From assembly GCA_947628585.1 (NCBI GenBank), contig CANRAL010000011.1, positions 1-37,460 on the forward strand: a stretch of DNA of 37,460 nt. Direction: 5' to 3'. This DNA is from an uncultured Bacilli bacterium. GTDB lineage: Bacteria > Bacillota_I > Bacilli_A > RF39 > UBA660. The translations under genes and the position numbers were made by a program. Below the pieces are notes generated by a model. It ran no database searches. It was not told the DNA's origin and worked only from the letters and a program-made list of their open reading frames with translations. Positions 34,667-37,460 of the stretch are shown here, piece by piece. The number at the start of each line of letters is the position of its first letter. Position 1 is the stretch's first letter.

Positions 34667-35707
34667 TTACTTAGTAAATGAGTGGGCTCTTTTTAAAGTT
34701 AAGGAAGATGTTTCATAATTTTTTAAATATTGTTTTAAAAAATATACTTTATCTATATTATGCAGAAATACTAAATCACAAAATTCCAAGGCTTGCTCTA
34801 AATATATTTCATTATAACTGCTTATATCTTTATAACTTCGACCATTAAGTTCTTTTCTTTTTAAGACAATATCTTCTTGATATAAATTACCTACCCCATT
34901 AGTTAATATATTAGCAAACAAATTAACATTATTTTGCCAAATTACAGGATTAGTTGTACCATTAGGACATCTAAATTCAATAGTGTTCATTTCTCCTACA
35001 GTATGAAAATCATATAAATTAGTAAAATTAACGGCTTCGTTCCGATAAATCTTTCTATTACTATTATTGTGAAGTAATTTATATATTTCTCTAAATAAAT
35101 CTTTAATAGATTCATCTTTTTGCATCATTTCATAATATAAATCATATTCGCTACCCAATAAATCTGCGATAGGCATAGCAAATTCCATAATCTTTTTTCT
35201 AGGTGTTAAATACTCTCCATAGCAAAACCGAAAAATAATATTTTCATAAACCATCCAAAGACATAAAAAATGATATAACTTTTGCGCTTCTTCATTTAAA
35301 ATATTAGCTCCAATATGAATATGACCAGCAGCATAGCCTTTAATTTTAGAATGTTTTTTTAAATATTCACAAATTTCCTTTACTTGTCGCCAACAATAAT
35401 TATCATCTTTTAAAATAGGAGAAATAATTTCCCCACCCATAGGAACTGAAGAATCTTCTTTAACTAACCATTTACCCTTATCATTTAAAAATTTGTTATT
35501 TTCCATATTTAAAAATTTGGCTTCTTGTTTTTTGCTTAATTTATCACATTCTATTTCTAAACCATACGTAATGTGGGAATCTATCCCTAAACTTTCCCGA
35601 AACTCTAATTTATAATCTTCTATTGAATGTAAAAAATCTTGTAATGCATCAAAACTTAACTTCGTTAATAATAAATTAGATAGTGTGAAAAGTTTTATGG
35701 AAAACAA
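34667..35707 (-). CDS. Amidoligase-family enzyme, 5' end displaced by an insertion sequence
   Basis: Member of the putative amidoligase family (glutamine synthetase / gamma-glutamylcysteine ligase fold) that joins amino groups to carboxylates using ATP. Conserved parts are ITYGLEIECD, LVKEDSSVPMGGEIISP, AAGHIHIGAN and MNTIEFRCPNGTTNP, which hold the metal- and ATP-binding acidic residues. The left inverted repeat of the insertion sequence starts at 35681, so roughly the first nine codons of the track ORF (a TTG start without any ribosome binding site) are IS sequence. The original N-terminus and promoter are cut off. The catalytic core looks complete, so a shortened protein might still be made from a start inside the insertion end. 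Substrate unknown. Confidence 0.75.
   Translation of the reverse strand: MFSIKLFTLSNLLLTKLSFDALQDFLHSIEDYKLEFRESLGIDSHITYGLEIECDKLSKKQEAKFLNMENNKFLNDKGKWLVKEDSSVPMGGEIISPILKDDNYCWRQVKEICEYLKKHSKIKGYAAGHIHIGANILNEEAQKLYHFLCLWMVYENIIFRFCYGEYLTPRKKIMEFAMPIADLLGSEYDLYYEMMQKDESIKDLFREIYKLLHNNSNRKIYRNEAVNFTNLYDFHTVGEMNTIEFRCPNGTTNPVIWQNNVNLFANILTNGVGNLYQEDIVLKRKELNGRSYKDISSYNEIYLEQALEFCDLVFLHNIDKVYFLKQYLKNYETSSLTLKRAHSFTK
35681..35706 (+). repeat. Left terminal inverted repeat of the insertion sequence
   Basis: Begins TAGTGTGAAAAGTTTTATGG. Compared with the right end read inward (TAGTGTGCATAGTTTATATA) the first seven bases match and most later bases agree over about 25 positions. Confidence 0.7.
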
Positions 35708-35719
35708 GTAGCACAGAGT

Positions 35720-35749
35720 AAAAAGATATTAAAATGAAAATTTTAATAT
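35720..35749 (-). terminator. Terminator of the transposase gene inside the left end
   Basis: The minus strand reads ATATTAAAAT-TTTC-ATTTTAATAT followed by CTTTTT, a perfect 10-bp stem. A second small stem TCTATC-TTTTTT-GATAGA lies just before it at 35753-35770. Confidence 0.65.
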
Positions 35750-35841
35750 AAATCTATCAAAAAAGATAGAAAAATTGTTCTTTGAAAATAGTAATTAATA
35801 AAAAAAGACATGATGAAAACAAGTAAAAATAAGAATTTAAC

Positions 35842-37272
35842 TTAAGCGTAAATATCAGAGTACTTGTAACCAAGATTAAGGAGTTCAATCCATTTGTTAG
35901 GCATATTAGAAATATTTTTAAGTTCGTCAAGTTCAACAGGAGTTTTCCAGCCTAAGGCTTTATTAGGTCTTAAGAAATTATTAAAAGAAGCAAATAAAAC
36001 CATGTAGGAATTGGCATTATCAAGAGAAGAAAAACCACCTTTAGGACGATAATAATATTTTAAAGTACGATTAAAGCGTTCAATGATTTGCTTTTCAGAA
36101 CGATATTCTTTAGAAATATCATCTTGATTTGTAAGACCAATAACCTGATAAAGATTAAAAGGTAAACCATGTTGAGAACAATACTCGTTAGCAACATTAT
36201 AGATAGGATTACCATCGGAAATGACATTCAAAGATTTAGGTAAAGTATCGTACTTAATTAAGGTTGAATAAGCAGCTTTAATAGAAGATAAAGAATCACG
36301 ATTTTTGTAGACACGATAAGAAGTAACAATTTTATTAATAGCATCAAACCAAAAGAAAACATAAGCGGTTTTACCTAAGATTTTAATGTAAGTTTCATCG
36401 GCAGCAATAGTATCAGAAAGATTGTAAGGATAAAACTCTAAAACAGGATGAATGATGGAAGAAGCGGCTTTGCAATAATTTTCAACAGTTTTATAAGAAA
36501 TAAAAACTTCGTGAATATCTTTTAGAATCGAAGCAGTTTGACGATAAGATAAACCATAATTAACATGATAAGTAAGACATAAACCAATAATATATTGAGA
36601 AGAATAAGCGCGAGATAAATCGATAGGAGATTTAATAAATTCACGATAGTCTTTTTGGAGAGAAGGAATATCAATATTAAATTTACGATAAATATATCTA
36701 AGTTTAATTTTTTCAGGATGTTCTTTGTAAAGTTTTCTATCATGAACGTTTAAAGAATTTTTATTCTTAAGATAAAAAGGACAATTATCATTTTTACATC
36801 GATAAACATCAAAATCGTCATGATGATGGTAAAGAACAAGTTGATATTTACAATGTGGACATTTAAGAATAACATCTTTGTCTTTGTTAGGATTAGTAGA
36901 AAAGATAAAGGAACAAACTTTGCATTCAAATTGATTACCTTTACCAGTGTTATCATAAAGATAGTCTTTAGGAGCACCGCAGCAAGGGCATTTAACATCA
37001 ATAGAAATATTTTTATTGTTTCTACGCTTAATAGGTTTAATGTTATTATCCTTAACAAGTTGTTTCCAATCTTTATGTTCAATTTTAACAAAAGGTTCAA
37101 TAATAGGAGGATCATCAACATTGAATAAACGATATTTAACGTCTTGAGGTTTATCATCAAGATGCTTAATTTCATCAACTTTAATAAATTTGGAAAGAAA
37201 AATAATAATTTTCCAAATAAATTTATTAATACTATTTAAAAATTTAATGATTATTGATATAATTATAGACAT
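35842..37272 (-). CDS. Transposase, DDE type with two N-terminal zinc ribbons (476 aa)
   Basis: The first 30 residues are hydrophobic (IIISIIIKFLNSINKFIWKI), unusual for a transposase. Two zinc ribbons follow: C95/C98 with C117/C120, and C138/C141 with C159/C164. A helix-turn-helix-like part (NYGLSYRQTASILKDIHEVF) leads to the RNase H-like catalytic domain, with Asp292 in ADETYIK, Asp353 in VISDGNPIY and Glu398 in IIERFNRTLK as the likely DDE triad. The C-terminal LRPNKALGWKTPVEL is common to integrase-like enzymes. All key residues are present and the frame is open, so it is probably active. ATG start behind CGAGGT. The start and this site lie in a stem-loop. Confidence 0.88.
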   Translation of the reverse strand: MSIIISIIIKFLNSINKFIWKIIIFLSKFIKVDEIKHLDDKPQDVKYRLFNVDDPPIIEPFVKIEHKDWKQLVKDNNIKPIKRRNNKNISIDVKCPCCGAPKDYLYDNTGKGNQFECKVCSFIFSTNPNKDKDVILKCPHCKYQLVLYHHHDDFDVYRCKNDNCPFYLKNKNSLNVHDRKLYKEHPEKIKLRYIYRKFNIDIPSLQKDYREFIKSPIDLSRAYSSQYIIGLCLTYHVNYGLSYRQTASILKDIHEVFISYKTVENYCKAASSIIHPVLEFYPYNLSDTIAADETYIKILGKTAYVFFWFDAINKIVTSYRVYKNRDSLSSIKAAYSTLIKYDTLPKSLNVISDGNPIYNVANEYCSQHGLPFNLYQVIGLTNQDDISKEYRSEKQIIERFNRTLKYYYRPKGGFSSLDNANSYMVLFASFNNFLRPNKALGWKTPVELDELKNISNMPNKWIELLNLGYKYSDIYA

Positions 37273-37327
37273 GACATATACCTCGTTTCTATTGTTTGAT
37301 GATAATCATTATACAGGTATATGTCAT
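37271..37327 (-). promoter_or_regulatory. Fold-back stem over the transposase start, enclosing its promoter
   Basis: Perfect 13-bp inverted repeat ATGACATATACCT (37271-37283) and AGGTATATGTCAT (37315-37327) with a 31-base loop. The mRNA 3' arm covers the AGGT ribosome binding site and the first bases of the start codon. A perfect TATAAT (37308-37313) lies in the loop, so native transcripts would lack the 5' arm while read-through transcripts would fold. Confidence 0.7.
37308..37313 (-). promoter_or_regulatory. Transposase -10 box
   Basis: Perfect TATAAT on the minus strand, about 36 bases before the start codon. No good -35 can be seen (TATCAA at 17 bases), so the promoter is probably weak. 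Confidence 0.5.
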
Positions 37328-37357
37328 TTTTTGATAGATAAAAATAGAAATTTCTAT

Positions 37358-37385
37358 ATAAAAACCCCTTCAAAAAAGAGGGGGT
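37358..37385 (-). terminator. Inward-facing terminator at the right end of the insertion sequence
   Basis: The minus strand reads CCCCT, an 8-10 base T-rich loop, AGGGG followed by TTTTTATA. It lies between the right inverted repeat and the transposase promoter, where it would stop transcription entering from the flank. Confidence 0.65.
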
Positions 37386-37433
37386 AAAGAAAAATATATA
37401 GAAATTATAGAAAAATAAAGAAAAAAACAGGTA

Positions 37434-37458
37434 GTTTGTATATAAACTATGCACACTA
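37434..37458 (-). repeat. Right terminal inverted repeat of the insertion sequence
   Basis: Read inward on the minus strand it begins TAGTGTGCATAGTTTATATA. It is an imperfect match to the left end and lies two bases from the window edge. Confidence 0.7.
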
Positions 37459-37460
37459 CC

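Follow-up and report, generated by a model that had tools for sequence, protein, structure and literature searches.

An IS6-related insertion sequence on the minus strand occupies the end of the window, the 37,460-nucleotide stretch of DNA from an uncultured Bacilli bacterium that was analysed here, with its promoter side outermost. The leader of the transposase gene contains two complementary arms that very probably act as an RNA fold-back, telling transcripts apart by their origin. The -10 box of the element's own promoter is placed just inside the 5' arm, and native mRNA would start in the loop; it would therefore lack the 5' arm and leave the ribosome-binding site open. Read-through RNA from a flanking gene would carry both arms, fold, and cover the Shine-Dalgarno (SD) sequence and start codon, so that little transposase would be made from it. 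Hairpins farther out, one at the element tip and a middle one with a GC apex in the window copy, may also terminate some of the transcription arriving from outside, or slow it down. From sequence comparison, the fold-back reading has strong support: complementarity is kept through compensatory changes, whole arms have been replaced, the register is fixed relative to the -10 box as well as the start codon, and eight short IS6 members lack the structure.

In the window copy, the 5' arm, ATGACATATACCT (37315..37327, minus strand), and the 3' arm, AGGTATATGTCAT (37271..37283, minus strand), are separated by 31 nt and are exact reverse complements, confirming the perfect 13-bp inverted repeat around TATAAT described in a previous sequence-only reading of this DNA. 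The -10 box (37308..37313, minus strand) immediately follows the 5' arm, within the loop, and predicts a transcription start near 37301. The -35 box is weak; an alternative pair in this copy, ATGACA-17-TATCAT, would also start transcription inside the loop. The same reading had placed the transposase SD and start codon in the 3' arm, and this holds for all but two bases: the first G of the SD-like GAGG (37281..37284, minus strand; (A/G)AGG is kept in relatives) is just outside the arm, and only the A and T of the start codon (37272..37270) are within it. Pairing between the start region and upstream sequence was calculated at -19.8 kcal/mol, a value equalled by 1 of 5000 dinucleotide shuffles and the best for any of the 44 ORF starts that the window contains (the runner-up reached -12.4). 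The leader is AT-rich and a plain fold of its 141 nt in the window copy gave only z = -1.7, as might be expected of a chance repeat in AT-rich DNA; the targeted pairing test and the homologs consequently carry the weight. The shuffles and the ranking of ORF starts argue against chance, as do the compensatory changes, the unrelated arms of different lineages and the lack of such pairing in short IS6 controls. The homologs already contradict this explanation, which is extremely improbable.

An open frame of 65 aa (37263-37460) begins at the element tip and extends slightly beyond the start of the transposase. Because the frame is open through the leader, a gene fused to it in-frame could push ribosomes through the stem. 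The frame was checked in relatives with translational coupling in mind and was not conserved. A search of Rfam returned sub-threshold matches only.

The complete insertion sequence spans 1782 bp (35679..37460, minus strand), as defined by its ends, an 8-bp target duplication (TAATTTAT), and homologous copies with 8-bp duplications (L022, L024, L033, L036, and L038). Its left end, GGTAGTGTGCATAGTTT, begins at 37460 on the minus strand and its right end finishes at 35679 with the terminal repeat AAAACTTTTCACACTATC (35679..35696, minus strand). The ORF, profile matches, and homolog alignment identify a transposase of 476 aa (35842..37272, minus strand) with a hydrophobic N-terminus, two zinc ribbons, and a DDE domain (D292, D353, E398). 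The three catalytic-domain residues are invariant across 15 homologs and the CxxC pairs are conserved. The DDE domain is IS6/IS240-like, with a PF13610 score of 33.1 bits that exceeds the cut-off of 27; the match of the transposase to NF033587 (67.1 bits) is short of the curated cut-off of 125. The earlier description of a zinc-ribbon DDE element was therefore right and can be refined to an IS6-related element with the long clade VIII layout. Set beside published descriptions of its members (PMC6807381), the element agrees in size and layout with the IS6/IS26 family's long clade VIII, being longer than 1700 bp and having a zinc finger, an extra N-terminal part, and an 8-bp target duplication. 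Clade VIII (ISTet2, ISHahy6, and ISHco2; PMC6807381) is the same as clade i of PMC7986276, and its elements resemble the window copy in their length (>1700 bp), transposases of about 450-476 aa with a zinc finger plus a further N-terminal extension, and 8-bp duplications; ISTet2, for example, has 1761 bp and encodes 454 aa (PMC6807381). The authors of the classification suggested that the clade should perhaps form a separate family (PMC6807381). In this comparison by description only, the published accounts of ISTet2, ISHahy6, and ISHco2 mention no leader structure.

The contig of the window stops exactly at the element edge, and the same 77 bases open another contig (C9) from the same genome. 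Because TAATTTAT stands outside both ends, on C9 immediately past the window edge at the left and within the window (35671..35678) at the right, C9 is the true neighbor of this copy. The joined flanks form a single open frame, an amidoligase gene (PF12224) that is split 43 bp after its ATG by the element in the sense orientation. An inward consensus promoter, TTGACA-16-TATAAT, is located at C9:181..154, 77 bp outside the element tip, in the flank of this copy on C9 (G000:C9:78-181, L003). Still farther upstream, and oriented the same way, are genes reading as argS and rpoE. Transcription into the element is therefore likely, and with it a real threat of read-through for the window copy. A viral contig scan and a phage protein search gave no matches.

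The test set beforehand asked whether homologs have noncomplementary arms. Complementarity was kept in all 30 close leaders (window included), most of them from genomes of gut Bacilli and Clostridia, and the fold-back reading stood. In each of the 30 the order is the same: the 5' arm, TATAAT immediately next to it, a loop of variable length, and the complementary arm, which contains the SD and ends at the start codon. Arm sequences vary among the close copies (for example, TGACATATACCT, TGACATTACTCGA, TGACAAATACCT, TGATTGATACCT, and AGCGAATTCCT), and every variant is matched by a complement of its own. Distant elements, at about 40-45% protein identity, have unrelated yet complementary arms in the same place: GATAGATACCCC / GGGGTATCTATC in L071, GATGAAACACTC / GAGTGTTTCATC in L070 (where the start is GTG), AATAACTTGCCaCC / GGAGGCAAGTTATT in L068, and AGCTTGcCACcCC / GGAGTGACAAGCT in L095 and L100 from Geobacillus. 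The L100 copy is carried by plasmid pHTA426 of G. kaustophilus HTA426. Wholly different arms also occupy this place in L094 and L096, from Pediococcus and Levilactobacillus; the arms of L069 pair less well, and those of L101 only weakly. A check of other copies for paired changes, proposed with the original claim, thus revealed both compensatory changes and replacement of the whole arm in distant lineages. The arms, their register, and their covariation are shown by the sequences and their comparison. Since the arms are replaced wholesale while the register is kept, the leaders are well suited as natural material for work on RNA covariation.

Between L035 and its near relatives L028 and the window copy, three adjacent stem pairs are switched on both sides (CAT/ATG to TTG/CAA), possibly as one event rather than three. 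Two Lactobacillus relatives, L097 and L098, have a different 10-bp complementarity over a GTG start (GTGTAAGCAC / GTGCTTACAC in L097) that is placed differently relative to the promoter, and they were left out of the supporting cases. It is conceivable, but a long shot, that the arms serve as a changing element-specific code, in which the outer arm of a read-through RNA from one copy also pairs in trans with the exposed inner arm of a different copy's mRNA, and rapid joint turnover of the arms lets new lineages escape repression by relatives already resident.

Cognate pairing was compared with swapped pairing for 34 distinct arm pairs. The means were -17.1 and -8.8 kcal/mol, respectively, and the cognate sum was reached by 0 of 100,000 swap permutations, a procedure that ignores relatedness. 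Shuffled leaders matched the observed pairing in 0-1 of 300 trials in almost every member; L069, L100, L096, and L101 stood out as exceptions. In an alignment of 22 leaders, the seven start-adjacent pairs were 98.7% paired and included eight double changes, with none in any slid register. Several pair types occur at each stem position, and some pairs are G-U or have a one-sided bulge. Mapped on the protein tree, changes of pair type number at least five, three, and two at positions -5, -4, and -3, where the numbering is approximate in the L019 group because of a 1-nt indel. RNAalifold was also tried on a MAFFT alignment and undercounted the stem, its register being displaced by the 1-nt deletion of the L019 group; the arms were therefore paired sequence by sequence. 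Control IS6 elements were taken from plasmids because a search of the phylum with NF033587 gave mostly weak matches under the family cut-off. The fold-back was absent from all eight short members (IS1216, ISS1N, IS257, IS26, IS6100, ISTeha2, ISEnfa1, and ISSau6; z -1.4 to +1.9).

The freedom with which the arm sequences change while complementarity stays also bears on a quite unlikely explanation, that the inverted repeat is a DNA operator whose two arms, flanking the -10 box, are bound by the transposase or a host repressor to stop transcription. The arms are symmetric around the promoter as an operator would be, and a left subterminal motif beside the 5' arm, TCTATCAAAAAA, is mirrored at the right end, making some DNA-level binding near the promoter plausible. 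The distance between the arms varies widely, however, and some pairs are G-U or bulged on one side; moreover, the 3' arm is always over the SD and start codon, a position that an operator does not need. The motif itself, at 37327-37338, is mirrored by TTTTTTGATAGA (35753-35764), and similar motifs are present at the right ends of most copies. These may be subterminal transposase sites overlapping the promoter.

The RNA fold-back makes predictions about the two kinds of transcript, and folding of native and read-through forms, which had been suggested as a check, was run in that sense. The predicted cost of opening the SD-start region was 4.4 kcal/mol for RNA beginning 7 nt past TATAAT and 10.1 kcal/mol when the 5' arm was included; a shuffled 5' arm gave 5.9 kcal/mol. 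The read-through RNA was the costlier to open in 35 of 36 leaders, and L029 showed no gain. We infer from these results, and from the position of the -10 box, the start site in the loop and a translational block on read-through RNA. If native mRNA instead started upstream of 37327, it too would contain the stem, which would then be a general damper of transposase translation. There is a precedent in IS200, whose left end has a terminating stem-loop plus a stem-loop occluding the ribosome-binding site (PMC3196728). This explanation is very unlikely given the TATAAT that directly follows the 5' arm in all 30 close leaders, and in L069-L071 and L073-L075 the arm is likewise followed by a -10-like box, either TATAAT or TATACT and often preceded, one base away, by TG.

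The sequence-only reading proposed two layers of protection against read-through, the fold-back stem and a terminator 30 bases farther out. The first is strongly supported; the second stands in part. In the window copy, the GC hairpin ACCCCCTCTTTTTTGAAGGGGT is followed by the inward T-run TTTTATAT (37364..37385, minus strand) and is strongly terminator-like; about 36 nt, not 30, separate its inner edge from the 5' arm. One terminator-like hairpin was found and 0.4 were expected by chance, so the GC hairpin is not significant alone. The nearest relatives (L034, L019, L028, and L035) lack its stem, and the window sequence GAAGGGGTTTTT is replaced by GAAGTAATTTTT or GAAATTCTTTTT in relatives at about 88-92% protein identity. 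The GC hairpin is the apex of the larger middle hairpin (37349..37406, minus strand), defined by pairing and by relatives, in which a 12-bp outer stem (37406..37395 / 37360..37349) encloses it. This outer stem is found in many relatives with compensated changes, including TTTTTAGTA/TACTAAAAA in L053 and L031 and AAGAC...GTCTT in L021 and L024. The terminator claim gains further from another hairpin at the element tip, GGTAGTGT...AACTACC (37430..37460, minus strand), which overlaps the left terminal repeat and precedes an inward T-rich tract. Folding and relatives support it: GGTAGT...ACTACC with the T-rich tract occurs in nearly all copies, with GGTATTG/CAATACC in its place in L029 and L032. 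The second half of the tip hairpin is present at the left end only. By their structure, the tip and middle hairpins may be terminators, and the tip hairpin could be either a terminator or part of transposase recognition.

Protection against read-through transcription by fold-back is established for IS10 and IS50. As in those elements of the IS4 family, the arms described here are complementary and straddle the predicted promoter, the SD and start codon are in the 3' arm, and only RNA from outside would have both arms to hide the ribosome-binding site. The transposase family is unrelated, however; the arms of the present element lie some 130 bp in from its end, with the 5' arm adjoining the -10 box, and more hairpins are found outside. 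The proposed pair of devices, a terminator-like hairpin outside and a stem hiding the ribosome-binding site inside, resembles that of IS200, which is an unrelated HUH element without terminal inverted repeats. The short IS6 elements (IS26, IS257, IS1216, ISS1N, and IS6100) have a related DDE domain and 8-bp duplications (PMC7986276), but their leaders are only about 56-74 bp and lack significant fold-back. According to a 2021 review of the IS6 family, control of transposase expression is little known and the stimulation of IS6100 by a strong outside promoter is surprising; a term search of this review found no mention of control at the ribosome site or by a terminator (PMC7986276). In the open-access literature on the named clade VIII elements, nothing was found beyond classification. 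The fold-back mechanism is therefore known in kind, and its lineage-wide presence in an IS6-related clade appears to be new within the literature searched.

Elements of the IS6 family move resistance genes. The long zinc-finger branch has a clear and apparently old shield against read-through and the eight short members examined are without it, a contrast that is directly testable. As read from the arms, fold-back shielding would extend beyond the IS4 and IS200 families.
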